Made by a program: the position numbers and the translations under genes
The notes under the pieces: model-generated
The model's database searches: none
Told to the model about the DNA's origin: nothing
What the model saw: the letters and a program-made list of their open reading frames with translations, nothing else
Part shown: piece after piece, positions 1,839-62,927 of the stretch
Layout: every line of letters starts with the position of its first letter
Position numbering within the stretch: the first letter of the stretch is position 1
Origin: Eunapius fragilis
Taxonomy: Eukaryota; Porifera; Demospongiae; Spongillida; Spongillidae
Length of the DNA: 64,000 nucleotides
Direction of reading: 5' to 3'
NCBI GenBank assembly: GCA_963681505.1
Contig: OY811981.1
Location: forward strand, 2,711,072 to 2,775,071

Positions 1839-4626
1839 CTAACAGTGCCTGGCCTTGTTGATAAAGTCATTGCGCTTGTCATCTGTGTCCATCCTCGAGT
1901 CATGCTGGTGTGTAACGTCTGTTGAGTGGAACATGGTGGGCTGTACCAAGGAGGTACTACCGCACATGTACCCTGGACCCCCGTCACTGATAGGAGAGGC
2001 TTCCGTAGTAACTGGCATATCTCCTTGCCCAATTGCATTGGCTTCATGCTGGTCTTCTTGGAAGTTGCTGCCTTGTGGATATTCTGGCTGGAAACGTAAC
2101 AAGACATCTTCACAGGGTGATGAGCGACTGGTGTCACTAGAGCATTGACCAGTGCTGTATGAGTTCAGAAGTTGTTGCTGGTGGTGGATAGCACTTGGGA
2201 CCTGAGAGACATTCGGGTTCTCATCAGCACGTTCTACTTGGTGGCTGAAAGTTGAAGTGACATTTATATAACACACTCATTACCCACACATCACATTCAC
2301 CCACACCACATCAGCCCACACATCACACTCACCCACACATCACACTCACCCACACTTCACACATCACTCACATATCACATCCACCCACATCACCCAACAC
2401 ACTTCACTCACCCACACCACACACACCCACATATCATACCACCACACACCACACTCACCCACACCACACACATCACATCCACCCCACCAACACATCACAC
2501 CCACTCTCACACATCACACCCAGCCACATGTCACACCCACCCACACACCACACTCACCTTGGACACATTGAATTTTTCTTACGACTGGGAAGAAGTGGTG
2601 GGAAGGAGGAGGAAGAGATAGGGGAGGAGTTGGTAAGTACTCTTATTAAAGTTTATGTGTGTTTCATACTCTTGGACGCCATCTTACAGGGGGCCCAAAG
2701 TAAAAGCATGAAGGGGAGGGGGAGGGTAGTGGGAAGGAAGTGAGAAGGGGAGGGGAAGGGGAAGGGGAGGGGACGGGGAGGGGAGGAGTGGAATCATCCT
2801 TATTACTGCACTCACCATTTGATGGTGATGATGATGATGACAACAACAGCAGCAAAGGCAACAGCAACAATAACTCCTACTGATAGCCCTGCTGCCATGG
2901 CAACAGGAGGGCCAGTAGCAATGGCATCAACGCCTTCAGTCACCACCAAGCTAATGGAGGGCTTTGTTGGAACATCTGAGGTCATGGGCAGTTTTTCATA
3001 TCCTGGGGAAGAGGATGAGGAGGAAGAGGAGGAGGAGGAGGAGGGGGAGGGGGAGGAGAATGAAGCCATAAAAGATGTGCTGAGGTTTGCAGCTCTGGGG
3101 GTGAGGCTTCTGATGGAAATGTGACCTGACACCCCCTCCACCAGGAAGATCTGACCATCCACCATCTTGATTATGGATGGGTCCCCACTCCACATAAACA
3201 GCCTGCCTTGCCCTGGGGGGGTCACTGCCATTGTGATCACCGTCAGCTCTCCCCCGTAAACGTCCAGTGCCAACACGGTGCCGTTGTTCAGAGCGAAGGT
3301 AAACACGGGACTGTTGCCATGGACACACAACGCATCTGCAAAAGTGTACTGGAGAGATACGTGCACTCTTGGGCGCGTTGATGAGGTGAGGAAGAGGGAA
3401 CCGTTTGGAAAGTGGGTCACGACGGTGTCCCAGCTGGAGCAGGGATAAGGTACCCCCTCCGATGGGCCATAGGGTAGGGCGTCCTCCCTGCAGAGGGAAA
3501 AGGCAACCCCACTTGCGTCTGAGCAACGCACGATGGCTCTGTTGTTGCCGTAGTACTCCAGACGTTGGAACGTGGGACAGTACGGGGCAACACTGATGGG
3601 TAGCACCCTGAGGGGCACCACCTGCCTGTCCAGGTCAGGGTTGGTGATGAAGGCCACCACGTTGAGGTCGTCCATCACGAAGACGTTGTCCGAGATGACC
3701 GGGTTAACGTTTGGACAGTTGGCCTGATCTGGTATGTAGACGGGCTCGGAGAAAAAGTCAGGGTTTATAACGTTCCAGGTGCTCAGGTGCGACAACTGGC
3801 TGGGACCGGCGCTGACATCCGTGAGATCGAGTCTCATGAAGTCGATGAAAGGATTGCTGGCGGTGGCGTTGACGCATAGAAGGAAGGCCGTCGACTGGGT
3901 GGTGAACAGCGAGGAGGTTGGGTTACAGCTCCGAGCGACGGGTATGGTGTTGCGGTTTTTGTACACCAGTGCACCGCCGACAGGGTCATATGTGTAAGTG
4001 ATGTGTGCCACGCCCTTCTCCAGCGGGATGAGGGCGTTAACCATCGTCCCGTTGGAGTGCACGCTGACGTTGCATTGGTGAGGTTTGATAACGCACTCTT
4101 CGGGTAAGGCGTAGCCGTCGATGTTCACGGAGCTGGTTTGACCGGAAGGTGAGGCAAGGCTGACTTGTATCCCAGACTGTTGGTTACTGGCTAGTACTGT
4201 GTAGCGACCGACAGCACCTGTACGACCAGAAATGAGCACTATGATAGATAATAGATAAGTGTGTTTGTGGCGGAGGGGGATGTATCCTCCGCAGTTTGTC
4301 GCCAAAATGATATGCACACTGACACTACTCCGTCAATCCGCTACTCTCGTCGGCTTCATGTTAATAAGGCTGCCTATCTCCCTCCCTCGAAATGCTTACG
4401 CGCGCATAGGCCTACGTGCTACTGGGTTCCAATAACCTTTTCCCTACCCCCGCTTCCACCCTCTCCCCCCTTCCCCGACACCAAACAAAAACCAAATACT
4501 CAGATCCACAATGCCGGACGGTGTGCAAGTATAGAGATATTGGGAAGGGCACTCACAATGTCCAACACTGGTCAAGCCGAACTGCAGGGCGGCCAACGGT
4601 AGCAGCAATCCACGATAGGCTTGCAT
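1839..4626 (-). CDS. Single-pass receptor-like glycoprotein, tandem copy 1 (3 exons)
   Basis: I do not recognise the family. Exon 1 (4626-4557) encodes a signal peptide (MQAYRGLLLPLAAL...). Exon 2 (4217-2816) encodes a Cys-containing ectodomain with many N-glycosylation sequons, a poly-Ser stalk and a TM segment ending IIIITIK. Exon 3 (2244-1839) encodes a roughly 134-residue polar cytoplasmic tail ending KARHC. Donors are GTGAGT and GTGAGTG; acceptors end in ACAG and TCAG. Intron phases are 1 and 2, and the sum (1878 nt) gives 625 aa with no frame break. Shared ectodomain landmarks with copy 2 are SCNP, a Cys-Pro pair before the phrase LEYYG, PYPCS.W and FPNGS/FPNHS, then a Cys before V.G or VNS. 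The tail shows no kinase domain or clear ITAM/ITIM. Role is inferred: cell-surface recognition. Confidence 0.75.
2278..2565. repeat. CA-rich minisatellite in receptor copy 1 intron 2
   Basis: Imperfect tandem units of the type CACCCACACATCACACT fill most of the intron between the TM exon and the tail exon of receptor copy 1. A purine-rich GGGGAGGGGAAGG tract follows at about 2710-2790. Confidence 0.85.
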
Positions 4627-5044
4627 AACTGTAGGTCCCCTGTACAAACTGCTGCATCACTAATATAGCAACAGGAGTAACTTCGTCATTACAAAATAAT
4701 AATAATAATAACTATAATCTATTTTTACATCACACGGGATTACCGGGGGAGTGGAGGAGACCAGTGACGTAATGCATGCGCTGAATCGAAGTGTGGGCTT
4801 GCACGTAAGATCTGGACTGTGTTTAAAATAAAAGTTGGAGTGAACGGAGGAGTGAAAAGCAAGCTGTTCGGACGGAACAGGACCACGCGATTAGCACTAC
4901 ATTAAAAGTACGTGTGTGAGGGGGGGGGGGGGGGGGCTGGTGTGTTGGACGTTGATATATTTAATAATGCTATCTTTTCGTGTACCGGTAATACATTAAG
5001 CCCCTTCATACTATGTGATATCTTACTTTTGGGGGGGAGGGGAT

Positions 5045-5079
<35 letters not shown>

Positions 5080-6573
5080 GAACCCTGCTGCCTCCATTAT
5101 TTTTCAGTTTGGCCAGGCAACAGGATGCTAAAATCAACTGCAAGTAGCAACTAACTTATTAATTATGTTATAATCCTTTGCTTTCTTCAATTCCAAATGA
5201 CACCCAGCTATCATGAACAATATTATCATTTCCCAAAAACCCTAACACAATTTTTATTCCACAACATTATGTTTTCATCATTTTGGTCACGGTACAAAGG
5301 GGTGGGGTCAATGTTTAAAAGGCCTTCAATTTTAGTTTACCTGTTCAAGAAAATTCAGCAGTATGGTGTATATGATGTAATGGAAATTCGATCACGATCA
5401 TAAATTAGTGAATGCCTTTTTATCTAATAATACAATCGAGACCCTATTCTTTAAGGCTGCTAGCATATATGATGCAGTCCACACACCAGGTCTGACTACT
5501 CATACATTATATTCATGCCCTAAGTGTCTCAGACATGTGAGGCTACTGATTTAATTGTGGCGTTGTAAGGTAGGACGTGTCATCTGTTGAAAAAGATTTA
5601 ACAACACGATATCCATCTCACTGCAATGGTGTCATGAATGACTGCAAACCAAAGTCATGTTCCTGAGTTGGGGCAAAGAGGTTAACCAAATGATACACCT
5701 TTCTCCTGTGAGGGCTTGGACAGCTAGCTAGGCTGTGATGGGATCTATGTGAGGGCTTGGACAGTTAGCTAGGCTGTGATGGGATCTATGTGAGGGCTTG
5801 GACAGCTAGCTAGGCTGTGATGGAGGGCTTGGACAGCTAGCTAGGCTGTGATGGAGGGCTTGGACAGCTAGCTAGGCTGTGATGGAGGGCTTGGACAGCT
5901 AGCTAGGCTGGATGTTGATGTGTGTGGCTTTGCTGCCATTTGGGACTCGCTGTGACCTCCGATAAACAGTGGGTCGGTCATGGCTAGGTTCATTAGTTAA
6001 AAATACCAGTGCAGTTGTACAACCGATCAGCCGAGTCCCCAGACTAGCACTCAGATATCATGCCTATCACAGAAAGGTACCTCAAAAAGGTCAATTATAA
6101 AACCAGAAGAGCAATGGTGAAACCATCCACTGTTGAGAAGTGATGGGGTCTGAACCTAAGGACTAGTGAGATTTCCAAAATGGAACTTTTTTCAGTTCCA
6201 AGTGTACTGCACCACATTAAAAAGATTCCCTTAACATGTATGCTCTACATGTTTGCCTGCCACAGGCCCCGCCCCTTGACCCTTCCCACTTCAGTACATA
6301 TGCCAAAGATGGTCAGAGATGACAAGACACATATCCCATATTTACATGCATGCACAGCATAAAAAAATAATAACCCTACACACATGTACGGCAGCAGAAC
6401 ACATAGAAAAGCATGCAGAGGTGAGGGAATGCAGTGTTGGAGATGTGATGACTGTATACCATATAACCATATAAGGCAGGGCATCACCCCCCACATAAAG
6501 GCAGGAGCCATCCAGACCACACCCCCCCCCCCCCCCCCAAAGAAATGAAAAAGAAAAATAATGATAGGTTGCT
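4627..6573. other. Gap between receptor copies 1 and 2
   Basis: No gene supported. It contains two long G-runs (about 4920-4936 and 5046-5079) and a minisatellite at about 5700-5910 with the core GAGGGCTTGGACAGCTAGCT: the first units are longer and share GGGATCTATGT, the later ones are shorter. A C-run lies at about 6523-6538. The promoter of copy 1 should lie just above 4626, but no clear element stands out. Confidence 0.6.
5700..5910. repeat. Minisatellite, core GAGGGCTTGGACAGCTAGCT
   Basis: About six tandem units. Two early units carry an extra GATCTATGT segment that the last three lack, so there are two unit lengths in one array. Confidence 0.9.
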
Positions 6574-9151
6574 CTATGCACGTGTGTTGAGTGCAGCAAT
6601 TTTGCTGTCCATGTCGTTCCTTCTGTCCTCACTTCTGAGTTCTGCATCCTTCTCCACCACGTCACGGGCACTGAGGGAAGGAATGGGCACCCCATGTCCC
6701 GTCTCAAGAGATGACTCCTGTGGAACTGCGTTCTCCTCCATTGGCACGGTGGTGGGCTCCAACATGTTCTGGTCACTACCATGGGGTGTGTTCAAAACAT
6801 AAGCAAGCTCATTCAACTCTGGTGGTGCTGGCACAGGTTGTTCCAAACTACAAGCAGTCTCCATTCCATTCCACTCGGGCATTTGTTCCAAACTACGAGG
6901 GGCCACCATTCCATTCCATACTGGCGTTGGCTCGGGTCGTTCCAGACTGAAAGGGGTCTCCGTTTGGTCTGGACTGCCTGAGGTAGCTAACCCAGATTCC
7001 ACACTCTCATTCTGGGTCACACCAGCTGCCAACTCAAACGTTGCGTCCGAGGAATCAGTGGCAATAGACAAACGTACGGGACCAAGGGTCACCAACTTGG
7101 ACTTGGAGCTGGGCTGCCCTGTTGTCTCCTCACCATGGATACTATCCGCTGTTCTTTTATACCTGAAATGAATAAAATTGCCATCTGATCACAAACACTT
7201 CTAAAACCCACAACACGTGCACAGAAGCCATAAGTTTATAGTTGCATTATAACCCTGACCACATGTACACCTCCTCAACCTCAATAGCCCAATCACTTCT
7301 ACCCTGACCACATGTACACCTCCTCAACCTCAATAGCCCAATCACTTCTTACCTTCTATGTCTGCACCTGCATCCCACCACTGATAAGGTAATGATAATT
7401 GCTATAGCACCACACCCACCACTAATCATCACACCAATCACAATGAGCTGTGTGCCAGTCAGAGAGGACAGCTGAGCTTGAGCTTTGTAGGGAGATGATG
7501 GTGATGGTGACAGTGATGAGGTACGAGGTGATGATGAGGAGGCATCAGGAGATGGTAGCTGTGAGGGTGGTTGAGGGAAGGAGGAAGAAATGGCTGCCTT
7601 GGGGGAGCAGGGACAGGTGTGTTGGTTAGGTGGTCCTACAAAGGAGGTGGAGAGGTCAGGAGGGAAGGGCAGACCCACCACCTCGTGGGGACCATTGGGG
7701 CAGCTGAGGTTGACCACCTTGTACATACGGCCATCGATGAACCCCACGAGGAAGGAACCTTCATGCTCTGAGAAGTCCAGCCCTGGGCAGAGGACTGGGG
7801 AGGAGACAGACCAAGAGCACCCAGACGTTCCCAGTGTGGTCACGCCGCCATCTTGAATTCTGACGGCATACACCGAGCCGTTCCAGTGACGGTAGACAAA
7901 GTGTGGATCTTTGGAGTTGACGCACCTGGCCTCTGACACACCTTCAACTGTGATGGGCGGAGTAGCAGTTCCGTTTTCAAAGATGGCAACCATGGAGTGA
8001 TTGGGGAACATCCACGCCACCACCCCCCAGGTGGAACACGGGTACGGAACGGAGACGGAGTGATTGGCGACAGGCCGCAGCGGTCGGCGACAGGGGTCAA
8101 AGGTGAACGCGCTCCCGGCGGAGCACCTCAGCAGCACTGCACTCCCGTGCGAGGTGCTTCCGTAGCACTCCAGGTGTCCAGAGGAGGGGCACGCCGAGCT
8201 GAGGAACTCAAACGGCATTCCTGTGAACACGTTCGGCGCTGCAGCCGTAAAGGCTGCGACGAATGCATGGGTGCGGTCCAGGAACAGGGCCGTGTCGGCC
8301 ACGGTACCAACCACGGGACAGTAGGCGTTCGAAGGAACGTACAGGGGCGCGTATATGGGGCCAGACGTTGCCATGGAGTCCAAGGTCGTGAAGGTCGGCT
8401 CACCGCTGCCGACGGTAAGCACCAATGATGTCACAGCCGAGTCAGATACACACAGGACGCCCAGTTCGTGTGACGACCCCGCGCTCTGGGCGACGGTGAG
8501 CGGGTTGCAGGATTGAGGTGTGGGGACGAGGGAGACGCGTGTGAGGTTCCATAGCGTGGCCGTGTATTCGTAGTCCAACACCACGAGGGACCCCCTTGCG
8601 GGGACGTACACGCTCAGTAACTCCTTGGGGCCCTCCCTGTATCGGACCGCGGTGGCGTTGCAATTGGAGCGGTGTCCCGCGGCTTTGCACTCGGCGGGAA
8701 GGCGGACGTCGGGGACCAACAGCGGGAACGTGTCGATGCCCGGAGACGTCACGTGTACGTTCAGTCCCTCCGTTGTGTTGTGAACAAAGACATGGTGTAT
8801 CGAACTGCAGCTGTGCACACCTGAATAATAGAGGTGACATGTTTGTCGACAAAGGCCAAAGGGATAAGGGACGCGCCTTAATTAGCATAAATTAATATAA
8901 CCTCTGGCCATATCGACACCTTTCCCGATCCTGAAAATGACTTTCTACGTACTACATCTAAAGATCACATGCCTAAATTGAGCACTTCAAACACCCTAGC
9001 TGGTATCGGGTGTGTGAGATAATGTTTATCGCACACGGTTCCGGGTCCTTAACATACCTGTACAGGTAGTAGCGATCCAGAAGAGAATTAGTGACAATAG
9101 CCGTAGCTTACTCGAACACCAGTCCAAATAATGCCGAAAGTACAAGTCCAT
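6574..9151 (-). CDS. Single-pass receptor-like glycoprotein, tandem copy 2 (3 exons)
   Basis: Paralogue of copy 1 with the same architecture. Exon 1 (9151-9058) encodes an N-terminal signal segment containing LRLLSLILFWIATTC; donor GTATGT. Exon 2 (8820-7353) encodes the ectodomain, a Ser/Pro stalk with SPSPSSP, a TM segment (about 25 hydrophobic residues starting at LIVIGV) and the basic stop-transfer CRCRHRR; donor GTAAGA. Exon 3 (7162-6574) encodes a 195-residue tail starting YKRTADSIHGEE. Phases 1 and 2 match copy 1; 2151 nt gives 716 aa with no interruption. The tail carries an internal repeat of about 16 residues (WNGM..., SLEQ) twice and the phrase ELAYVL. Function unknown; a lineage-specific surface receptor is the simplest reading. 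Confidence 0.77.
7252..7349. repeat. 49-bp tandem duplication beside a splice donor
   Basis: The unit beginning ACCCTGACCACATGTACACC occurs exactly twice in a row. It starts 3 nt beyond the end of receptor copy 2 exon 2, inside intron 2. Confidence 0.9.
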
Positions 9152-9258
9152 TTCTAATACAAGTACAAGTCTATGTGGTACCGTCTATTTTCGCGGCCTA
9201 CTACCGGAAACGACACCGATCGACATTACGTATGACGTATAGCAAGTGCACTCGTGTA

Positions 9259-9263
<5 letters not shown>

Positions 9264-9340
<77 letters not shown>
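9264..9340. repeat. AC microsatellite
   Basis: An almost pure AC run of about 75 bases, just upstream of the first exon of receptor copy 2. Confidence 0.97.
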
Positions 9341-9781
9341 ACACACACGAGGCAATCATTCAAGATACATGTGTGTATATAAAATGGTATAGACATAAAT
9401 CACACAGAAATATACACATACAGCTGAGCTTGAGGGTAAAAAAGCAGTCCGAATTTAAAAAAAAAGCAGGATGTAGGGTGGGGACCCTTTTGATAGAGAC
9501 CTCATTGTTAGTAAGAGTCATGGGGGGGGGGGGGGGGGTACTCAGACAGCTGATGCATCTCTTGGAAGATATGGTACATTTCCTATGGCAAAGATGGTAG
9601 GGACATCTTGCGTTCCTTGTGCAGAGATAGGGGGTTGTTCAGGGTCTACATCTTGTTCCCCGTGCCCTTGGATAGTGGCTACTACTGCTGGACCATCACT
9701 GCTGCCATCTGTACAGAGTTTTGCCTCTTCATCAGGTCTGGAGGAAGGAGGTACATGTAAGTGTCTTACAGAGTTGGAATG

Positions 9782-10412
9782 TGGGGAGTGGGTAGGGGGG
9801 GTGTGCAGGAAGGGGAGATGGGGTGGAGGGAAGAGAGATGGTGGAGGGAGGGGAGAGGAGTGGAGGGAGGGAGAGGAGTGGAGGGAGGGGAGAGGAGTGG
9901 AGGGAGGGGAGAGGGTGGAGGGAGGCAGAGGGTGGAGGGAGGGGAGAGGGAGGGGAGAGGAGTGGAGGGAGGGGAGAGGAGTGGAGGGAGGGGAGAGGAG
10001 TGGAGGGAGGGGAGAGGAGTGGAGGGAGGGGAGAGGAGTGGAGGGAGGGGAGAGGGTGGAGGGAGGGGAGAGGAGTGGAGGGAGGGGAGAGGGTGGAGGG
10101 AGGGGAGAGGAGTGGAGGGAGGGGAGAGGAGTGGAGGGAGGGGAGAGGGCTGGAGGGAGGGAGAGGGTGGAGGGAGGGGAGAGGAGTGGAGGGAGGGGAG
10201 AGGGTGGAGGGAGGGGAGAAGGTGGAGGGAGGGGAGAGGAGTGGAGGGAGGGGAGAGGGGTGGAGGGAGGGGAGAGGAGTGGAGTGAGGGGAGAGGAGTG
10301 GAGGGAGGGGAGAGGGTGGAGGGAGGGAGAGGGTGGAGGGAGGGGAGAGGAGTGGAGGGAGGGAGAGGGTGGAGGAAGGGGAAGGAGTGGAGGGAGGGGA
10401 GAGGGGGTGGAT
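9782..10412. repeat. G-rich minisatellite (GGAGGGAGGGGAGAGGAGT-type units)
   Basis: About 630 bases of near-perfect 15- and 19-base units made only of G and A with one T. It lies in the intron between the ectodomain and tail exons of receptor copy 3. All six frames stay mostly open because of composition, giving false Arg/Gly/Glu or Ser/Pro/Leu proteins. Each unit has runs of three or four G, so G-quadruplexes are possible on the + strand. Confidence 0.95.
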
Positions 10413-10599
10413 GCAGGGTAGAGAGGAAGAGAAGGGGCATGATCAACAGGGAGAGAAGGAATAGGGAACAGATAGTAACATTGCTCTTACAAAAGCGGCT
10501 GATATGGAACAGCAGCTTTGCATATTCTTCGGATAACACTGATATGTAAGACCAGGATTTGTAGAGTCACAAATGAAAACAGAACACTACTTTCACAGA

Positions 10600-10632
10600 T
10601 ACACACACACACACACACACATACAATCAACA

Positions 10633-10687
<55 letters not shown>
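10600..10687. repeat. AC microsatellite in receptor copy 3
   Basis: Interrupted AC run next to the broken TM region of receptor copy 3. Confidence 0.95.
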
Positions 10688-10689
<2 letters not shown>

Positions 10690-12671
10690 CAACACACATA
10701 AAAAGCACTGTACACATGCAACTACATTTCATTAGACAAACATACCATGCTAAAACCAATACCACCACCATCACTATGACTAGCCCCCAACTGTACATGT
10801 GATGATGACAATGATGTACTCTGGTCGGAAAGATGCAACAGATGGTGCATGAGTGGTGGCTGCCTTGGGGGAGCAGGGACAGGTGTGTTGGTCAGGTGGT
10901 CCTACAAAGGAGGTGGAGAGGTCAGGAGGGAAGGGCAGACCCACCACCTCATGGGGACCATTGAGGCAGCTGAGGTTGACCACCTTGTACGTACGGCCAT
11001 CGATGAACCCCACGAGGAAGGAACCTTCATGCTCTGAGAAGTCCAGCCCTGGGCAGAGGACTGGGGAGGAGACAGACCAAGAGCACCCAGACGTTCCCAG
11101 TGTGGTCACGCCGCCATCTTGAATTCTGACGGCATACACCGAGCCGTTCCAGTGATGGTAGACAAAGTGTGGATCTTTGGAGTTGACACACCTGGCCTCT
11201 GACACACCTTCAACTGTGATGGGCGGAGTAGCAGTTCCGTTTTCAAATACGGCAACCATGGAGTGATTGGGGAACCTCCACCCCCCAGGTGGAACACGGG
11301 TACAGAACGGAGACGGAGTGATTGGCGACGGGCCGCAGCGGTCGGTGGCAGGGGTCAAAGATGAACGCGCTCCGGGTGGAGCACCTGCCTCCGTAGTACT
11401 CGAGGAAGGGAGGAGGGGCCTGGGGGCAGGCATCGCCAAGGAGACGGAGACTGTAAAACAGCTTGGGGGGTGGGGCTCAGAGAGGCTAAGAGGAAGTCAG
11501 GACCAGCAGCAAATGCCACAACAGTGGCCACCACAGAGAGCAGAAGACAGTTGGCTAGCTCCTCGACGAGGACAGGATTGGATAGCGACGGCGGGATGGC
11601 GCGGCTATACGCTCTGATTTCCACAAAGGATGAAAGGCAGACGTCGTCCGAGCACAGGTCCAGTCCCAGGGTGATGACATCACTGCTGCCGTCAGGGGAC
11701 TGGCGCAGGGACAGGATCGGCAGCGTTGACCCTTGGACGTATCCCACGGCAACAGGGTTGCAGCTTGCGGATGCTCTTAGGACGCAGGGCGCCGTGGGGG
11801 CGGGGCTCCAACCGATGACATTGTCGTTGTTGTTGGGGCCACGGTATGTGCACGTCAGAGGGAGTATCCCGCCCCCCACAGGGATGAGAATGGTTATGTT
11901 GCCATCGTCCAGGTGGACTGATGTGATGTTGCACTGAGTGTAGCTGGCTCCACACTCTGAGGGAAGGTGGACATTTGGGATGGTGATCGTGATGTTGATC
12001 ATGGCTGACGCGAGGGAGACGTCAATACCGTCAGATCTGTTACGAACAAACACGTAATGCAGTACGCTGCAATTCTCAGCTCCTGTGAGTGTGAGTTGTG
12101 AGTGTAGTGAGGATGACGTGCCATGGCTAATACACATGTGATACCTGGCCTACTTAATTGGGTCCACTATGTCTAACTTTGTCTTGTCTTCCTAACACCC
12201 ATCCCCTCCACAAGACATAATTTATCCCGCAAAAGATTTGAAGGTTCCTCTGGGGTGGTACCTTTGTCATAGTGCACGGAGGCCTGCAACAATGCAGGCT
12301 CTAATATGATCACCTCGCCAGTGACTGTTCTATTACACCGTTTTCTTGTGGATTTACAAAACCTTAGCAACCGTAAGCCAAGTTACACTGCTATAGAGGC
12401 GTGTGCTACAGCCTACAGCCTAGATTAGCTAGCCGCGTATATGGCGCGGTTTTTATATGGCTAAAAATGTAGCGCATTTTCTGTTTGACAAAAAAAGAAA
12501 AAAGAAACAATTCGAAGGTGTCATCTTCTGCGCAAATGCCGGCTTACCAGTTTCCGTGGTAACCACATTTTCGTTCAGGTGAACCGTGGCAGCGGGGGAG
12601 AGGTATATGGACGACAAAGCCAGACATACCACCAGGACTCTCATGACGTCGATATAGAAATAATGGGACAT

Positions 12672-13600
12672 TCCTTTTTTAACAACTTAAGCATTTGCTT
12701 AATAAGAGTGAATGCCAGAGCCATTCTCCGAACCGAACCTGTCTGTTACTGTAAAGGTGTTTATTCTGTATTCTTAATGTTATCTTTGATGATAAAAAAA
12801 TAATTTATTAAAAATACATAACTTGTATTAAACGTCCTAGGGGTTAAGATACAAATCTTATGGGTACGACTTTTTGTCTATAAAGAGGTCCTTTCTCATG
12901 GGGTAGTGTTGTTGGGAGAGGGAGATGGAGTGAAGGGAGAGGGGGAAGGGGAAGGGAGGTGGAGGGGAAGGAGAGAGGGAGGGGGAAGGAAAGGAGAGGG
13001 GGTGAGAGGGAGAGAGGGGAAGGAGAGAAGAGGGGATGAGAGGGAGGGGAAGGATTGGCGCGAATCGAGCGTGAAAATGTGGAGGCACTTTGCAGCAATA
13101 ATCTTCGTAACGGATAAAGAAAATATTAAAAATACATATCAATAGCTAAAGTAAAGGCCTTTCTGCCTACAACCGAATTTGAAGCAATTTGATTACTCCT
13201 ACCAATTAAAAGTTATGGCAGTTTTGAACCCCCGTGAGGTGCAGTATAATAATTAGCGCAGTGCAAAATCTATTTTACCATAGAGAATGTGTTGTATGAA
13301 GTCGCATTTAAAAATAATCCATCCGCAATTTTCTCTACACGGTGGATTACGTCACAGATACGCTTGCATACTACATTGCATGGGTCGAGGCAACGAAATA
13401 ATGCGCCTATGTCACATGAGACACCCCCCTTCCCCCCGGGGGGCGGGATTCGATGCGTGAATACCATTATCGCACACGCTACATGTATTTGACATCGTTG
13501 GGGCATTATTTGACCTCTACCACGGTGCGCGCGGAAGCTTGTGATTCGACGAGCAGTCCATGAGAGAGATTGTTAAACACCGACTTCCTTTTTGTTTGGT
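12672..13600. other. Gap between receptor array and GPCR
   Basis: No gene. It contains a GA-rich tract at about 12910-13050 and one copy of a dispersed repeat at about 13045-13310. The divergent promoters of receptor copy 3 (-) and the GPCR (+) must lie here. Confidence 0.6.
13045..13310 (+). repeat. Dispersed repeat family, copy i
   Basis: A diverged match to 59265-59545. Shared landmarks in order are GGCGCGAA, a run near CTCCGTAACGGAT, AACCGAATTTGAAG, TTTGAACC and a final TATGAAG. Further copies lie at 52800-52990 (reverse) and 59895-59990 (cut short by an LTR). Confidence 0.7.
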
Positions 13601-14632
13601 ATGAATGCATCATGGTGCAACAGAACGTCGGCAAGCCTCACTTCCGAACAAAACGATGGTCTGCTCGTTATCATGGCATCTACGGCGGGTGCCGCTGTCA
13701 TCGTCTGCACAACAGCAGCCACTTTTGTCCTTGTCAAGAAATTGTACAAGCAACTCGTTTACCGATTGGCACTGTACCAGGTCCTCAGCTCGCTGCTGTT
13801 CGCATCACTGCAAGTGCTCCAACTCCTTTTTCTTAACTACCACAAGTACCCTGACGATTATCATCCGTTGTGTGTCATCGTCGCTTTCCTCCAAGTTAGC
13901 TCACGGTTAATCAAGTTGTGCTTCACAGCGTGGGTCACGTTCCACCTCTTCTGCTATGCTGTGTTTTACAAAAACATGAAAAAACTGGAGTGTCTTTACA
14001 TTGTGACGTCACTTGTCGTGCCAGTACTCATTTCCGTAGTCCCATTCACCACTGATTCGTACGGGCTTCTTAAGCCGTGGTGTTCTATAATAAACGCAAG
14101 GAACGGTTGTCCTTTCTTCGTTGGTATCATCGAGCAGTTTCTCCTATGGTATGTCCCAGCGTTCATTTTGCTTTTGACAGAGTCTGTATTCATGATAGTA
14201 ATGATAGCCATATTAGGATACAGGGTGTACCAGAAGAAGATAAGCAGCAGTACTGGGAAAGCCCTAAAGCAGATGCTGCCCCTCACTGCCTATCCCATTA
14301 CGTTCTTTGTGCTCATCATACTTCCGTTCACCAATCGTGTGTACGAAACCACACAACGTCCGCCCAGCTATGGCCTTCACGTTGCCACTGCCTTCTGTAC
14401 CTCTGCATACAGCCTGGCTGCAGGGACAGCTCTCATACTGCACGTCGTGACCATCTCCCCCTGCAAACGTCGTGTTAGCCATGCGAATACGTATAATTCG
14501 AGGTACGGTACTATCCACGAGGAAAGCAGGGTCACAGATGTGAAGAATACGCTGAGCAATAACACAAAGTTCATTCCCCCTAATGAAACTGATATTGATA
14601 ATGAAGCAAAACTCATTCACACGAGCATGTAG
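13601..14632 (+). CDS. Seven-transmembrane receptor (GPCR), cAR-like
   Basis: Single exon, 343 aa from the ATG at 13601 (MNASWCNRTS...). The short extracellular N-terminus carries two glycosylation sequons (NAS, NRT). Seven hydrophobic segments follow at roughly residues 22-45, 55-78, 87-113, 122-142, 170-197, 218-238 and 252-280, then a polar tail of about 60 residues with Ser/Thr-rich and Asn-rich parts. Paired cysteines after TM2 (PLCVIV) and before TM5 (KPWCS) fit an extracellular disulfide. No DRY or NPxxY motif is obvious, so it is not a typical rhodopsin-class receptor. The overall pattern, including SRLIKLCFTAWV in TM3, is closer to the Dictyostelium cAMP-receptor-like class found in sponges. 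Ligand unknown. Confidence 0.8.
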   Translation: MNASWCNRTSASLTSEQNDGLLVIMASTAGAAVIVCTTAATFVLVKKLYKQLVYRLALYQVLSSLLFASLQVLQLLFLNYHKYPDDYHPLCVIVAFLQVSSRLIKLCFTAWVTFHLFCYAVFYKNMKKLECLYIVTSLVVPVLISVVPFTTDSYGLLKPWCSIINARNGCPFFVGIIEQFLLWYVPAFILLLTESVFMIVMIAILGYRVYQKKISSSTGKALKQMLPLTAYPITFFVLIILPFTNRVYETTQRPPSYGLHVATAFCTSAYSLAAGTALILHVVTISPCKRRVSHANTYNSRYGTIHEESRVTDVKNTLSNNTKFIPPNETDIDNEAKLIHTSM

Positions 14633-32003: not shown

Positions 32004-32178
32004 TAAGTGCGCAATGGCATTCTCCGGTACACGGTTTTGCTTTGTCAGCAGGCCTTTAAATAAATCCTCTTTCTTTTGTGTTTTTGCCATTTAGTTTACT
32101 ATTACAGAAACATTTCATTGCAACATTATATATAGATTGGTATTTGATTGTACCGTACAGCCTACAGGTGTGAAAGTT

Positions 32179-33069
32179 ATGGCACGGGAATTGAGAAAAT
32201 ACCTTCCTGTAGATAGCACAGGAGGAACCCAATGGGACGACGGCGCCAGAGATGGCCCGCCAATCGTGAGTGTGCGTTCGATGCGCGTTCGTCACGGAGA
32301 ACACGTGAACTGCATCCAGGCGACGTACGTACTAGCAGACGGCAACCTTTACACCGCTCCCGCTAGGGGGAGCGATGCGGAAGCGGAGGACACGTTTACG
32401 CTGGACTCTTCGGAGGCCATAGTACGAGTGGAAGGAAAGGTTGCGGGACGCCGCTTGGACCAACTCGTGTTTACCACGAGAGCCGAGAACGGGGATCTGA
32501 GGACGCACGGACCGTACGGTAAAACTAATACGGGCGATGAGGTCTTCAGCATCGAAGGCTACATCGTTAGCTTCCTGGGATGCAGTGATGATAACACGCT
32601 GGTGTCCCTCGGAGCGCGCTACCTTCCGCCGCTGATGCGGAGCATGGAGGTGGGTCTGTGCACGAGGGTATCGTTCGAGGATCCGGTGTGGACGCTACCG
32701 GTCGTGCGGATGAAGTGCATCTGCGTAAAACACGACAGTCGCGTCAGAGCCATCCAGTGCACGTACGAAACACTGGGGGGACGATGCTTCACTAGTTGCA
32801 AGCACGGCGGGTCGGACAAAGGCATAGAGTCGAGCATCGTTGAGCTGCAAGACGGGGAGAAGATTGTGGAGATGACAGGTCGCACGAACGGCGTTTACAT
32901 CGGTCAGTTGGCGTTCGTGACTAAGAAGAAGGACGGTACCAGTGAGGTTCGCGGCCCCTTCGGGAGGACTGGGGACACGGCGTTCAGCGTGCAAGTACAT
33001 GGCTGCATCATGGGGTTTTTCGGACATTCGGGGGATTTTATAGAAGCCATTGGTGCCTATTACGTGTGA
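32179..33069 (+). CDS. Double jacalin-like lectin-domain protein
   Basis: Single exon, 296 aa from the ATG at 32179 (MARELRKYLPVD). The frame is open further up, but no earlier ATG is present. Two tandem beta-prism (jacalin-like) domains are visible. Domain 1 (about 10-150) starts TGGTQWDDG and ends LGARY; domain 2 (about 155-296) starts SFEDPVW and ends IGAYYV. Each contains the family pattern of a strand before Y (IQATYVLADG, IQCTYETLGG), a D.GE or SSE turn before IV..EG/EMTG, QLVFTT / QLAFVT, then HGPYGK / RGPFGR and a F.GCSDD / FFGHSGDF loop near the sugar site. No signal peptide, so cytosolic or non-classically secreted unless an upstream exon exists. Carbohydrate binding is inferred from the family. 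Confidence 0.85.
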   Translation: MARELRKYLPVDSTGGTQWDDGARDGPPIVSVRSMRVRHGEHVNCIQATYVLADGNLYTAPARGSDAEAEDTFTLDSSEAIVRVEGKVAGRRLDQLVFTTRAENGDLRTHGPYGKTNTGDEVFSIEGYIVSFLGCSDDNTLVSLGARYLPPLMRSMEVGLCTRVSFEDPVWTLPVVRMKCICVKHDSRVRAIQCTYETLGGRCFTSCKHGGSDKGIESSIVELQDGEKIVEMTGRTNGVYIGQLAFVTKKKDGTSEVRGPFGRTGDTAFSVQVHGCIMGFFGHSGDFIEAIGAYYV

Positions 33070-37000: not shown

Positions 37001-37910
37001 AGTGGGTATGGTAATTCTAGATGAGGCCACAGTAATGTGTTTAGATGTTATCTCCTTTTCATACATTGCCTACCAGCTCAGTTAGATAATGGTCAAGTGC
37101 AGTTTTCATATAATGAAAATGAAATATAAAACGTTTCAATGATTTAGTGTGTACTACATAGTAATAACTGCCATGACCAACACTGAACATGACAAGTTAA
37201 TAAACAGTCCTGATGTAGTGCATGTATGTGTGTATGCGTGTGTATATGTGTAAGTGCATGTCGTACAATGGAGGTTGGTTATCAGTGACCTCTATTGCAG
37301 TGTGATAACACCAGGTAGCTCCCACACTGTCACCTTGGCATACCAGGGCACAGGTGTTGGCTACGTGGAGCAGGTGGTGGTGACCATGACCCTAAAGCCC
37401 CAAGGACTGCTCTCAGGGTCTGGCCGTGGGGACATTTACATCACCCTCCAGTCTCCATCGGCAACCACCTCCACCCTCCTCTTCAAGCGGCCATACGACA
37501 CTGACCGGACTGATGGCTACTCCAGTTGGCCCTTTGTGTCTGTCCACTTTTGGGGGGAGGAGCCCCTGGGCAGTTGGACCCTCGCTGTCCACTATGATGG
37601 GACCAGTGGCCAGATCATTCTCAGCGGTTTGAGTATGACCATATATGGTACTGCTTCAATACCTATGGCAGTGGCTCAGACCACACCCACCAGCTGTGGG
37701 CGGGGTTACTACCGCAATGCCAGCACCCTTGAGTGCATGAACTCATGTGACTACACGATTAGGAGTGGGTACTGTTATGACCCAGCACAGCCAGAGGAAG
37801 TGTGTGTCCGTGTGGCCCTCCCTCCTCTGAGCTCTTCTGCCATGGTGCAGGCCAGTGGTACTGTTATGACATCACTGCTCTGGGTGTTGGGTTTGTATGT
37901 GTGTGTGTGA
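33221..37910 (+). CDS. Furin-like proprotein convertase (S8 kexin family), 11 exons
   Basis: Calcium-dependent protease that cleaves precursors after dibasic sites in the secretory pathway. Exons: 33221-33379, 33454-33495, 33686-33778, 34096-34207, 34872-34909, 35333-35498, 35593-35768, 35963-36175, 36586-36686, 36741-36971, 37301-37910. The sum is 1941 nt, 646 aa, in frame. Seen: a signal peptide, prodomain (NSWAVKVAGG) and autocleavage site RKRVKR (ends at 82). The catalytic set is Asp134 in IVDDG, His175 in ESHGTSC, Asn277 in ASGNGG and Ser350 in GTSAATPMAAG, all evenly offset from human furin. A P domain follows (about 445-580). There is no furin-type Cys-rich domain. The C-terminus is Ser-rich then hydrophobic, like a GPI signal or short TM. 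Exons 1 and 2 are less certain than the rest. Confidence 0.9.
33655..33683. repeat. Poly-C run serving as polypyrimidine tract
   Basis: About 28 consecutive C lead straight into the AG acceptor of convertase exon 3. Confidence 0.9.
34004..34066. repeat. GT microsatellite before convertase exon 4
   Basis: GT run about 30 bases upstream of the exon 4 acceptor. AC tracts with a tandem duplication (containing ATACATGCACACCTATTCAT) follow exon 4 at about 34228-34343. Confidence 0.95.
34930..35290. repeat. C/T-rich minisatellite of about 27 bp in convertase intron 5
   Basis: About a dozen units of the type CCAGTACACCCTTCTCCCCT followed by ACCTCTT, with small length changes. Confidence 0.95.
36180..36430. 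repeat. Minisatellite of about 24 bp in convertase intron 8
   Basis: About ten units of GGGGTGTGGGGGTCCATCTA followed by TGTA, starting just after the exon 8 donor. Confidence 0.95.
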
Positions 37911-45140: not shown

Positions 45141-46797
45141 CTATGATATTCTACAAAGAGTATTTTTGGGCAGCTGTGAATGCTGAACAGTCTGAGTGTC
45201 ATCATCGTCTGAGAGGTCCTCTTCAGTAAAACCACATTCTTTCAAGAATGCTTCCATTGTTTGCCCTTTTATATGAGACATAAGCCTTGCAGCCTCTTTT
45301 GCTCTTTCATACTGGTGCACTCGGTCCTGCCATCCAGGTCGGGGGTCACTTTTCTCTGCTTGAATTAGCAATTCTATGTACTGAACTTGCGATAGGGGGT
45401 GAGGTTTTAGGGCAATTTTGTCCAGATTTTGAATGCATGCGTGAGCTTTTTGAATGCAAGAGAACACTTCTTTTTCTAACTGACGTTTCTCAGCAGTGAT
45501 CTTTTCCACTATTGCTTCCTTTGCTCCTTTTCCTTCTAAAGCTATGTGGTATCTCTTCTTTAAGTCCTCATAAGTGCGCACTTCTTTCTCTGAATACATT
45601 TCATACCGTTTCGGGCTATTTACATGCTGCTGCCAAGAACACTTACCAGGGCATACTGTACAAGCTGCATTGGCTGGGTCACTTTTTTTCATGGCAGCAC
45701 ACTTGTGTTTGTCTTCATCATGATTAATTGTACAAGGATAATGGCAGGTGCAGTTACAAGTAAGGCAGTTAGTCACGTACTCTCCAGGAGCTAAATCTAC
45801 TAGTCTTTGTTTGTCTACCACTACTTCATATGTGAAGTCTTTATTTGCATCAATGGATTCCTTGTGTTCTCGTAATAACTTTTTCTCTTTCCTCAAGGAG
45901 CTAATTTTTGACATGCCTTCAGTAATATTTTGCTGCAAACCTTGAATGCACACTTCCAGTTGCTTTCTGTCTTTAAGCACTTCTTTTGTTAGTGTTAGGC
46001 TTTTACTGTCAACTTTTTGAAACTCGGTTAAAAATGATTTGATACTGTCAACTACCATCTCCCAAAATATCTTACTGAAATTGTTTGCATGTGGAGGAGT
46101 AAATAAAGCGGAGTTATTGAACATAAATTTCTTATCTGTAGGAATAACTGCTTCTTTTAGTGCTTCAAACACCTTAGATGTTCCTCCATCTGCATGTGTT
46201 GCCATTATGAAAATATTGGATCCTACGTCTTTTCCAAATATTGACATGACAGCATGAAATATATATCTTTGGGTAGGTGTAAGCCTGGAGTCATGAGCTT
46301 TGCAGTAAGTGCAATTCCATCCAAATGATCTATTCCATATTGTGATGGGGTAGAGAAAAAGTCTTGAATTTGATCCATAAGCTTTTTATCTCTTTCAAGT
46401 CCTTGAGTATCACCAAAACCAGGAGTATCAATTATTGTGAGGTTGAAGGCGACTTTGGATCCCTGGACCAAATGGAATGTATATGCTGTAATCCACTGAG
46501 TTTGGCTTGTGTTTGACTATTGCTTTCAGGTATGAGAACAAATCGAAATGAATCTTCCCATTTAATGTCAAAGATATAATTAACAATGGCATTAATTAGT
46601 GTGGACTTTCCAGCTCCTGTCTGCCCTAATATCATGAGAACTTTAGTGGGCACCGAAGGATCCAGACATTTAGGCCCTATCTCAACTTTCTCAATTTTTT
46701 TCTTTTCATCTCTGAACACCATATAACTGGTAACTTGGTACAGCATCAGTTCAGTATCTTCATTCAGTCTTCGATACGCTCATGCTACCATGCTAGC
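45141..46797 (-). pseudogene. AIG1-like GTPase with Cys-rich region, copy B (frameshifted)
   Basis: Close paralogue of copy A and better preserved. P-loop GQTGAGKST, G3 DTPGFGDTQG, G4 ATHADGG, then helical linker, Cys-rich block TNCLTCNCTCHYPC...CTVCPGKCSWQQH (about eight Cys/His, probably zinc-binding), RYEMYSEKEV, a basic/acidic coiled region and the acidic end EEDLSDDDDTQT. Compared with copies A and C, bases are missing near 46510 (before the G3 region) and near 46305 (in the IALT segment), so the G domain is split over three frames, while the last 368 codons are open. It could be a recent pseudogene or reflect sequencing errors. Confidence 0.8.
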
Positions 46798-56802: not shown

Positions 56803-58244
56803 CTAGCTGTTCACTTTCAGTTTGAATACATGTGATACTTTACTTATAGCCTTTGTTACAAGTTTACTGAATGTACTACCATCAGCTGAGAGATCCTTTT
56901 CATTTAAACCAAGGTCTTTATCATCTGTAAGGTCCTCTTCATTAAAACCACGTTCTTTCAAGAACTCTTCCATTGATGTTTGCCGTTTTATATGGGATAT
57001 GATGTCTGCATAGTTCTGTGCTCCTTCATCCTGCTGAAAATCCCATCCAGGTTGTTGGCGCGTTTCTGCTTGTGATTCTATGAATTGCACTTGTGATATG
57101 GGGCTAGATTTTTGCGCAGTTCTATCTAAATTTTGAATGCATAAATAAGCTTGTTCAAAATCTTTTTTTAATTGAGATTTTAGATAAACTATGCCTTGTG
57201 CCTTTGCTCCATTTTCTCCCATGGTGTCCTTCCATTGGTGTACTTCCTGTGAATGGGCACATGGCTGCACAGTAGAAGTAGCATTATGTGGTTTCTGTAA
57301 CATTTTCATTTGTTTCAAGTCACTAATTACTCCATTAATACGTTTTAGCAACACATCTAGGTGCTGTTCATTGGTTAATAATGTTAGGCTTTTAATTTCA
57401 ACTTTTTTAAATTCAGCTAAAAATAACTCGACATTATTGACTCCCAATTCCCAACGTTTTTTAACAAAATCTTCTGCATTAGATGGAGGAATAAACAGGG
57501 CAGAATTATTAAATTTAAATGTCTTATTTGTTGGAATACTAGCTTCGTTTAATGCTGCAATCACCTCTGATGGTCCTCCATCTGCATGTGTTGCCATGAT
57601 GTAAAAATTGCTTACTATATCGTTTCCAAATATTGACTTCATGGCATTAAATATATATCTTTGCGTATGTGTTAGTCTGGAGTCATGGGCTCTGACAGTA
57701 AGTGCAATTCCATCTACGTGATCAATTCCATCTGGGGCTGATGTAGTAAAAAGGTCTTCGATTTGATCCATAAGCTTTTGGTCTTTCTCAAGCCCTTGAG
57801 TATCACTAAAACCAGGAGTATCAATTAACGTGAGGTTGAAGGCGATTTTGGATCCCTGAACCAAATGGAATGTATATGCTGTAATCCACTGAGTTTGGCT
57901 TTGTGTTTGGCTTTTGCTTTCAGGTATGAGCACAAATCGAAAGCGATCTTCCCATTTAATATCAAAAATGTAATTAACAAAAGCATTAATTAGTGTGGAC
58001 TTTCCAACTCCAGTTCCCCCTACGATCATGAGTACTTTAGTAGGCACTGAAGGGTCTAGACATTTAAGACCTATCTCAACTTTCTGAATATTGTGCTTCC
58101 TATTGCTGTGTATTTGGTGACTGGTAACTTGGTACAGCATTAGTTCAGTATCTTCATTCAGTCTTCGATACGCTCGTGCTACCATACTACCCAATGTAGG
58201 AATCACTACTGGCTGTGAAGAAATACTTATGGCACTTGAGGTAC
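56803..58244 (-). CDS. AIG1-like GTPase, copy C (open frame)
   Basis: The only copy of the three with an open G domain. The exon begins at 58244 after GACCAG and stays open to TAG at 56803, about 480 codons; the start exon was not found, and the first in-frame ATG in this exon is in GSMVARAYRR. G1 GGTGVGKST, G2-like region after it, G3 DTPGFSDTQG, G4 ATHADGG. The frame then runs through a helical segment (LTLLTNEQHLDVLLKRI), a coiled part and acidic EEDLTDDKDLGLNEKDLS. Unlike copies A and B it lacks the Cys-rich TNCLTCN...CPGKC block, so it either lost that region or never had it. Expected role: GTP-dependent membrane or cytoskeletal switch, by family only. Confidence 0.8.
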
Positions 58245-59264
58245 CTGGTCAATGTAAACGTTTTTAAAATTAACATCAGTATCATTGTTTACATGTAAAA
58301 ACCAAATGAATATTGCTGCATGATTAACACTATTATGATATATGGATCGTTGCCATGAAAAATGACCTAATGCCACTTTCCAAGACAAACAATGCTTGTC
58401 AGTATTAAATGTATGGCTGAACTATGTTAGTAACACTTATTTATAAAATGTGTCATAATGAAGGAAAAGTGGTGGCTGTGCCTAACGAGACTCCCGATAG
58501 ACAGTGTGACTTGTTATTGCTATTGAACGAGAACATTTGTTGGACTCCATGAAAATGTATCATTTTACATAACTACTACATAATGTACACGCTTGTAACC
58601 AGTCCCATTTTGTTTCTCATTCTCCCTTTATTATCATAGAGTGCAATTGCAATGTATCCATCAAACCAATACTGAGCTGTATTGGTTTGAAAAAAGTGAA
58701 GTATGCTTGGCATTAAATATTTTAACAATTAACAAGAAAGCTTTTTTTAAAACAAGTAAGTAAAAAAATCATCTATGGTAGTATATAGGAGTTGAAGGCT
58801 GGTGTAAAAGTAAGGGAACAACGTTTAAAGGAACAAGGGTGAGAGAGAAAAATTTAACACACCTATATCCTGCAGACATAAACTTTAACCATGCATACAG
58901 ACTGCTAAATATAAGCCCTTAAATTTTTCTCACTCACCATTGTTCCTTGAAGCCTTGTTATCATGGCTCTGACGTACTGTTATAGGTTGTGAGCCTATAA
59001 ATGGTCATGCAATGAGTGGCACCCAAAGAGTATGACCGAATCGACAGGGACACATATTGTTGTGCGCGCGTATCGGTACTGGTAGTATGTACCGTGTTTT
59101 GTATGGTGATGGTAGCTGAACCCCACACATTTTGATCGCTTAACGAATCTTGTTCGTTATAGAAGAGAACCACTGACGTTTGTAAGAACGTAAATTAACG
59201 GTGGTACTTCAGTTGTATATATAGTGGCATGGGCATGGGAGGGGAACCAGGTTGTAGTAGGTTA
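58245..59264. other. Spacer upstream of GTPase copy C
   Basis: No gene supported. It must contain the 5' exon and promoter of copy C. A small perfect hairpin (CAAACCAATAC...GTATTGGTTTG) lies at 58663-58690. Confidence 0.45.
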
Positions 59265-60210: not shown

Positions 60211-61685
60211 CTGGCGACGAGGGTGTACTTATGGCAGTGGCTTTCGGTCACATTCGTGAGTTTGAATTGGGTACGGAGTCAATATCGGCATATTTGGAAA
60301 GGGTACTACTGTATTTTGTTGCAAATGATGTTGCTAATGAAAAAAAGGTGGCAGTGTTGCTTAGCGTTATAGGGAGCAAGACTTAAGTATTGCTACGCAG
60401 TCTACTACACCCAGAGGTGCCGAAGGAAAAGACATTTGACCAATTAGCTAAGACACTAAAAGAACACCTGGAGCCAAAGCCGCAAACTATTGTGGAGCGG
60501 TTCCACTTTCACCGTAGGAACCAAGAACAGAGTGAGTCAGTATTAGACTATATAGCAGAACTAAGACGTCTTTCTGCAAGATGTGACTTTGGGGGGTATT
60601 TGAAAGAAGTGTTGCGTGACCGTTTTGTATGTTGCTTGTCAAACGAAGCAACCGCTGACTGAACAGAACCTGGACCTTGCCAAGGCACTGGAGGTGGCTC
60701 AGGCTATGGAGGCGGCGCAGAAGAATGCGCTACAGTTCAAAGACCTGTCGGTAGGGCGTGTGAAGCTGGACCCAAAGGTCAGTCAGGTTGCGGAAAAACA
60801 GGTAACACCTTGTAGGAACGCATGTTATCGTTGTGGCAAGAACAATCATGTTGCCAACAAGTGTAAATTTTATTGACGCCACGTGTTATTGCTGTGGAAA
60901 GACGGGTCATATTGCTTCCGTATGTAGGAGAAAGCAGAAGGATGAAAGGAGAGGGAGTAATAAATTGCGTTGGGTAGAGAATCAGTCAGAAACTGAGGAA
61001 GGTGATGAAGATAGAACTGGAGAGGAGGATGACAGAACTGAAGGTATTTGCACCCTATCAGAACCATCTGGTAGGAAACCCATGTTGGCCGATTTTAAAA
61101 TCCAGGGTGTATGTCTTACAATGGAAATTGATACTGGTGCAGCGGTAACCTTGACATCTCTAGTCATATTTAATAGACATTTCCCAAAAAATGACTTTAT
61201 CTCCTAGTTCAGCACGACTCTCAACATATACTGGTCAAAAGATTTCTGTATGTGGTGAAATCAAGGTTAAAGTAAGGTATGGCAGCAAGTGAGGGATGGA
61301 CCAAATTTGGTGGGAAGAGATTGGCTTCGGCGTTTCAAACAGGACTGGCATCGTATAAAAAAGGTGCAAGTGTGTGATAGTCTCAACAGTGGACTCGACA
61401 CACTGTTAACTAGATTTGTAGAGGAGTTTGAGAAAAGTAAGGACCCAATTGTTCCATAACTTAGCGAAGTTGCATTTAAAGGATCAGAGTAAGCCAGTAT
61501 TTTGGTCTGTACCTTTTGCATTGAAGGAAGGAATAGAGGAAGAGATAGATCGATTAGAACAGGATGGAATTGTCCACAGAGTAATGCATAGTGAGTGGGC
61601 CACCCCAATTGTACCAATTTTGAAACCAGATTAAAAGGTACGGATTTGTGGTGATTTCAAGGTCACAATTAACCCTGCCCTAGAT

Positions 61686-62927
61686 GTGGATAGGTATCCC
61701 TTGCCGAAACTTGAAGAACTGTTAGCAACAGTGTCTGGGGGAAAATGGTTTAGTAGATTAGACCTTACAAATGCATATTTACAATTGGCTTTAGATGAAG
61801 AGTCCCAGAAACTTTGTACCCTTAACTCATCGAGGGTTGTACCAATACAGGCGTATGCCGTTTGGAATAGCATCTGCTCCAGCCCTGTTTCAGAAAACAA
61901 TGGATTCTGTACTGCAGGGGATCAAACACATGGGGTGTACTACATTGATGACATCCTAGTGACAGGCAGAAATGAGAGTGAACACTTAAGAAACCTGGAG
62001 CAAGTTTTCAACAGATTGAAAGAACATGGAATACGATTGTGTAAGGATAAGTGTGTTTTTCTCTCCCACTCAATGGATTTCTTAGGCCATCAAATTGATG
62101 CAGAAGGGATCCATCAATTGCCAAGTAAGGTAAAAGCCATGATAAAGGCCCCTGCTCTTAGAAACATTGCCGAATTGAAATCATTTCTAGGAATGGTAAA
62201 CTATTACGCCAAGTTCTTGCCAAATGTGTCCACCCACCTGTTTCCTCTGTATGCACTATTAAAGAAAGAACGTGGTTGGAAATGGGACAAGGAGTGTCAG
62301 CATGCCTTTGTCCTAATAAAGAAAATGCTTAGTTCCACACAGGTTCTTACTCCTTATGACCCTAAACTACCACTATGTCTGGCAGCAGCCGCCTCAGCAC
62401 ATGGACTTGGAGCTGTCTTATCACATGAGTGGCCTGATGGCAGTGAACGTCCCATAGCCTTTGCATCACGTACCTTGGCATCAGCAGAGCGTCACTATGC
62501 TCAACTTGAAAAAGAAGCATTGGCCTTAATCTTTGGTATAAAGAAATTTCATCAATACCTATATGGGCGTAAGTTTACTCTTGTGACAGAACATAAACCT
62601 TTGACCACCATACTAGGACCCAAGAAGGGGATTCCAGTGGTAGCAGCATCCAGATTGCAACGTTGGGCTCTGCTTTTGGCAGCATATACCTACAATATAC
62701 AGTATCGGTCTACACATGACAATGGAAATGCAGATGGACTTTCACGTCTACCATTACTGGAGGACCAACCTGATGTGGAAGGTTTAGAGGCAAGTGTTTT
62801 CAGTGTAGAACAAATTGAAGCACTCCCAGTTACTGCAGCTCACTTAAGGCAGGCAACACATAGTGACCCAATATCAAGTAAGGTATTGCAGAATCTAAAG
62901 CAAGGTTACTGGCTTGATCAAAGATAG
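61686..62927 (+). pseudogene. Ty3/gypsy RT-RNase H fragment
   Basis: The longest surviving frame of the element, 413 codons: RT palm with YIDD, thumb, connection and RNase H (LGAVLSHEW, IAFASRTLASAERHYAQLEKEALAL). The expected sequence between TLNSSRVVPIQ and CSSPVSEN is scrambled by compensating indels, so even this piece is not intact RT. The start is arbitrary, because the frame continues upstream to the stop at 61632. Confidence 0.85.

Follow-up and report, generated by a model that had tools for sequence, protein, structure and literature searches.

A candidate cluster of paralogous, unclassified surface proteins with a common tail motif in the sponge Eunapius fragilis

We analysed a stretch of 64,000 nucleotides from chromosome 11 of the freshwater sponge Eunapius fragilis (C11:2711072-2775071; window position p equals C11 position 2711071 + p), referred to as the window, with the focus on the minus strand of region 1839..12671, where the genes termed A, B and C are located. 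Together with further members to the left of the window, these genes are shown, at the level of sequence-derived models, to form a cluster built on one plan: a signal exon, a Cys-containing ectodomain whose N-terminal module of about 115 residues is common to the members, a stalk, a hydrophobic segment and a tail, joined by introns of constant phase. As modelled, four copies (A, B, D and E) are shown to be intact and two (C and a copy of A) broken, with one ectodomain tract that is 95.5% identical between two neighbours and a motif shared by the tails. With moderate confidence we favour the reading that this is a small cluster of paralogous, unclassified membrane-anchored surface proteins, acting in recognition or adhesion and probably having one common tail function.

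Genes A and B gave models of 634 and 716 amino acids, both without internal stop across GT/AG junctions, in which the signal exon is followed by a phase 1 intron and the transmembrane (TM) exon by a phase 2 intron. Splice sites in all gene models were picked by hand to hold the frame open, from the DNA letters alone. The ectodomains of A and B were 27% identical over 414 columns (E-value 2e-24), and by this alignment their homology is far beyond chance. The preliminary description of the region had proposed a three-exon scheme with phases 1 and 2. The phases hold in A and B, and also in D and E, whereas A has four exons as modelled and C is broken. The same phases had been taken to permit exon shuffling between copies. 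Exon 2 is not a symmetric cassette, because it runs from phase 1 to phase 2; replacement of an exon by its homologue is possible, but free shuffling is not.

The suggestion of a tandem family was borne out, and the cluster exceeds the window, with D, E and the broken copy of A to its left. Flanks of 140 kb on the left and 20 kb on the right were added, so that 224 kb with 2,805 open reading frames (ORFs) were scanned with profiles; ORFs shorter than 40 amino acids and mostly-N stretches were excluded. Ten ORFs passed the inclusion threshold of a five-row profile (A3), all of them in six loci, namely A-E and the broken copy of A. Gene D (-64663..-66370, minus strand; negative window coordinates lie to the left) has three exons and 532 amino acids, gene E (-48144..-46136, plus strand) four exons and 604 amino acids; both are intact as modelled, and their phases at the two junctions corresponding to those of A and B are again 1 and 2. 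Leave-one-out profiles recovered E at an E-value of 2e-07 and D at 8.4e-11 among the same ORFs. When the five sequences A-E were compared by BLASTP, 8/10 pairs had E-values <1e-3, and in this comparison the N-terminal half of C was related to both A (5.6e-10) and B (1e-12). The sixth locus, left of A (-4170..-7259, the far end being the limit of the comparison), is a broken copy of A in four blocks. Its long blocks are 85.9% identical to A over 2044 aligned columns and 84.2% over 890, and the copy still includes the tail exons of A. A run of 2500 N occupies window coordinates -64499..-62000 (L015), about 160 bp upstream of the start of gene D.

Single proteins were additionally searched against the whole genome (24 contigs, 218,937,333 bases). 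With B, 4 matches were obtained at E-values up to 0.001, in A, B and C, and with D, at up to 0.01, D only. At E-values up to 10, the N-terminal half of C found A, B, C and D, whereas E found itself and one weak match, and A gave 7 matches, of which four were parts of its broken copy, one was weak and the other two lay in A and B. The weak match to A, in C15 (E-value 0.265), was judged to be due to chance, the locus having only short, repeat-like open frames; the match to E, in C16 (2.05), was judged likewise on its E-value alone. The A query missed C, D and E, so distant members elsewhere would escape such searches and the count of six loci is a lower bound.

The tail exons had been described as having no visible similarity to one another. 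This stands for most of their length: shuffled whole tails reached the observed score in 28/1000 cases for A-B, 90/1000 for A-C and 630/1000 for B-C. Near the C-terminus it does not stand. When the 25 C-terminal residues of A and B were compared, only 6/5000 shuffles reached the score, and the tails of A, B, D and E have [ST][ED][DH]x[KR]N near the end, a motif not seen in the putative tail of C. The best tail block of width 12 reads DTDDKRNDFINK in A, RSEDRRNDMDSK in B, PSEDEKNRWLSK in D and PSEHRRNMHQSA in E, and its start lies 12 to 21 residues before the C-terminus. Shuffled tails reached the observed block scores in 3/500 (width 8), 0/500 (width 10) and 1/500 (width 12) cases, the blocks starting 12-23 residues from the end; position is not part of the block score, and the location near the end adds weight to the motif. 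The translation of the B tail (6574-7162) also contains a short internal repeat, WNGM...SLEQ, in two occurrences.

A motif common to the tails of A, B, D and E counts against the earlier proposal that these receptors keep their type of ectodomain and swap signalling outputs by exchange of tail exons. That proposal draws on the constant phases and on the fact that most of the tail length cannot be aligned between copies. Output-swapping (paired) receptors are recognised by related ectodomains that bear unrelated or opposite tails; this pattern was not found, as 4/4 intact tails share the C-terminal motif, though they are mostly unalignable. Moreover, the broken copy of A, the one recent duplicate, retains the tail of A, and the only exchange seen is in the ectodomain exon. 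Swapped outputs thus appear very improbable. Fast divergence of the tails, which had been part of the same argument, is not supported either, since a rate is not readable from paralogues whose age is undated.

The exchange seen in the ectodomain exon links B and C. Over the shared tract, which covers the C-terminal part of the ectodomain (coordinates in Table 1), 514/538 aligned columns are identical (95.5%), whereas B and C DNA outside the tract gave nothing alignable on either side except simple repeats, and the two proteins are about 30% identical N-terminal to it. Within the tract, 4 synonymous and 12 other base differences were counted in 176 codons (3 gapped codons excluded). Because this patch has divergent flanks on both sides, gene conversion fits better than a simple fusion, and from the alignment the tract is best read as the product of conversion. 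A further self-match of 301 bp arises from overlapping cuts and is no second tract.

Gene C, which had been presented as one of three genes with the same exon scheme, is not intact. Its matches to B are spread over three frames, the shared tract has an 8-bp deletion relative to B, the TM region is interrupted by a stop, and the junction between TM exon and tail reads TGA as modelled; on these grounds C is a pseudogene as assembled. The first stop is codon 275 of the joined exons 1 and 2, numbered from the ATG at 12644. This also touches the Cys landmarks said to be kept in all three ectodomains: the homology of A and B is real, but PYPCS.W and FPN.S of C lie in the tract shared with B and therefore give no independent support, so that they count as one observation, not two.

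Tandem arrangement, broken copies and an ectodomain tract common to two copies, together with no tail exchange seen, could also point to a polymorphic allorecognition or immune receptor locus, the ectodomain of which would be diversified by conversion and duplication, as is described for Dictyostelium tgrB/C. Against this stand the restriction to six loci near the window, with no convincing one elsewhere in single-protein genome searches of low reach, and the fact that the sequence represents one haplotype only. In addition, an identity of 20-30% between copies could mean that they are old and stable, and one of the two tract-sharing copies is dead. We consider such a locus rather unlikely. 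A more specific version, in which half-ectodomain conversion between neighbours would yield new specificities for self/non-self or microbe recognition, all of them reporting via one tail motif, seems doubtful to us and quite improbable.

That the family is membrane-anchored was supported by hydropathy analysis of A, B, D and E (Kyte-Doolittle scale averaged over 19 residues, with a threshold of 1.6). Each of the four proteins has one strong hydrophobic segment, at residues 471-489 in A and 490-508 in B, which follows a Ser/Thr/Pro-rich stretch; in the 50 residues before this segment, 40-52% are Ser/Thr/Pro, compared with 23-29% overall. The layout read from the translations would be that of type I single-pass proteins.

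No significant ectodomain match to SRCR, Ig, IPT/TIG, Sema, NHL, WD40, FG-GAP or other Pfam models was found for A, B, the C pieces, D and E. At E-values up to 5, Pfam returned no family for A, B and both C pieces; at up to 10, it returned none for D and, for E, three matches below the cut-off in the stalk and TM region (best E-value 0.038). NCBIfam gave no match for A, B and the C pieces. Among PDB sequences, B had no match and the profiles A1 and A3 had weak matches only (best E-value 0.41). A known-domain assignment was therefore rejected: the clear match to a known domain that the preliminary description had named as evidence against an undescribed family was absent from Pfam (A, B, C pieces, D, E), NCBIfam (A, B, C pieces) and PDB sequences (B, two profiles). 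Self profile comparison detected no internal repeats, and a beta-propeller, looked for in this way, was thus not found; a hydrophobic-moment test for a beta fold was weak (z 0.4-1.5 over five rows). With searches sensitive to close relatives only, no relatives of B were found in GTDB contigs and none of A in viral contigs, and phage records contained no relative of B. Among the papers listed in the literature searches, judged by titles and the starts of abstracts, none named the family. Sponge genomes commonly contain families that lack a named domain, so that a missing domain match alone is unremarkable.

The ectodomains carry 5-8 NxS/T sites per row (five rows, that of C being partial). Together with the Ser/Thr/Pro-rich stalk and the lack of a significant Pfam domain in the A and B tails, this would suit ordinary lineage-specific adhesion or structural surface glycoproteins without a signalling role, the tails of which only anchor or sort the protein. 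Tails of 60-195 residues with a common motif look like more than an anchor, which is an argument and not a test. Such a purely adhesive or structural family is possible, though on the unlikely side.

According to the favoured reading, that of unclassified surface proteins with one common tail function, the ectodomain would bind something outside the cell, which may be a neighbouring cell, matrix or a microbe, and the tail motif would serve all members as a single site for docking or sorting. We propose that the members would therefore differ in what they bind, not in what they signal. The locus itself would change as genes duplicate in tandem, die, or are converted in patches by their neighbours.

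Several points weigh against this reading. The tail motif was spotted by eye before it was tested and comes from four sequences only, and the tails of D and E rest on hand-chosen splice sites (the D donor being GTTTGT). In the five-sequence comparison, the pairs A-E and B-E gave no BLASTP match, and profile-profile alignment joined A/B/C to D/E over 110 N-terminal columns only (probability 94.3, E-value 1e-07). Since the alignment is confined to these columns, the N-terminal module is the shared core, and for the second halves of A/B/C and D/E, position and exon structure no more than hint at homology. The signal segment was above the hydropathy threshold in D and E and below it in A and B; the E ectodomain has two extra regions above threshold (peaks 1.84 and 2.31), and B has one marginal extra hydrophobic region (1.71). 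Because of these extra regions and the weak signal segments, single-pass type I topology is likely but not settled, least of all for E. Finally, plain adhesion or structural roles would fit the data as well.

Table 1. Gene features and shared tract in the window (Ser/Thr/Pro, serine/threonine/proline).
Feature	Position	Strand	Basis
Gene A exon 1, signal peptide, phase 1 end	4557..4626	-	ATG start, frame open, GT donor
Gene A exon 2, ectodomain, Ser/Thr/Pro-rich stalk and TM, phase 2 end	2816..4217	-	Open frame, splice sites, homology to B
Gene A exon 3, 27-nucleotide juxtamembrane exon, phase 2-2	2558..2584	-	Splice sites placed by hand, reading frame uninterrupted
Gene A exon 4, cytoplasmic tail ending DTDDKRNDFINKARHC	1839..2244	-	Model and tail motif
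Gene B exon 1, signal peptide, phase 1 end	9058..9151	-	Open frame, splice site
Gene B exon 2, ectodomain, Ser/Thr/Pro-rich stalk and TM, phase 2 end	7353..8820	-	Open frame, homology to A
Gene B exon 3, cytoplasmic tail, RSEDRRNDMDSK near end	6574..7162	-	Model and tail motif
Gene C exon 1, signal peptide, phase 1 end	12548..12671	-	In-frame ATG at 12671 and 12644
Gene C exon 2, broken: frame open in the N-terminal half, changing further on, with a stop in the TM region	10746..12082	-	Three frames
Putative gene C tail exon	9542..9737	-	Exon 2 junction reads TGA with splice sites used
Shared tract, B side, C-terminal part of ectodomain	7591..8128	-	DNA alignment to C
Shared tract, C side, 8-bp deletion versus B	10857..11386	-	DNA alignment to B

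Other open frames were observed around the cluster. About 900 bp from gene C and in opposite orientation to it, a 351-amino-acid open frame (13577-14629, plus strand) has a weak match to the seven-TM family Dicty_CAR (E-value 5e-4; 19.7 bits, cut-off 21). On the same strand of the window follow an open frame with two Jacalin-like lectin stretches (32095-33066; 1.3e-38), a proprotein convertase P-domain frame (37254-37907) and a retroelement frame with Reverse transcriptase / RNase H (61635-62924). Three GTPase-like frames on the minus strand are alike by eye: 56806-58248, with Pfam matches to septin and AIG1; 45144-46385, without Pfam match; and 73071-74633 in the right flank, assigned by eye only. 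Between D and E lies a Subtilase (S8) open frame (L014:2944-4842, plus strand). Between E and the window, two hydrophobic plus-strand frames of 316 amino acids (L012:6225-7172 and L011:4289-5236) are near-identical by eye and about 8 kb apart; the L012 copy had no match in Pfam.

Tgr proteins of Dictyostelium carry IPT/TIG-type folds, whereas the ectodomain pieces of A-E have no significant Pfam family. In its arrangement the sponge cluster is like the tgr family, which is described as clustered surface recognition genes with local duplication and recombination (PMC12324515). Allorecognition and polymorphism are reported for TgrB1/TgrC1 (PMC12324515), whereas the sponge cluster is known from the genes of one haplotype alone. 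Expansions of SRCR receptors in sponges likewise involve expanded genes and Cys-containing domains and are discussed as non-self recognition (PMC10855680); unlike these, A-E have no SRCR match in Pfam. The CEA/CEACAM family is similar in that its paralogous surface proteins were shaped by gene conversion and duplication (PMC7042247, PMC2832619), and differs in that A-E have no Ig match. It also comprises activating and inhibitory receptors (PMC2832619), whereas the intact sponge tails share one motif.

Altogether, the observation made in the preliminary description was partly confirmed and its interpretation partly supported. To our knowledge, the molecular basis of tissue recognition in sponges is poorly known, and the cluster offers concrete genes together with a concrete peptide, the common tail motif, and with an ectodomain segment copied between neighbours. 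If the proteins serve plain adhesion, they would still represent a protein family unnamed in the domain libraries searched. The part worth following is the conserved tail motif and the patchwise copying of the ectodomain, taken together.

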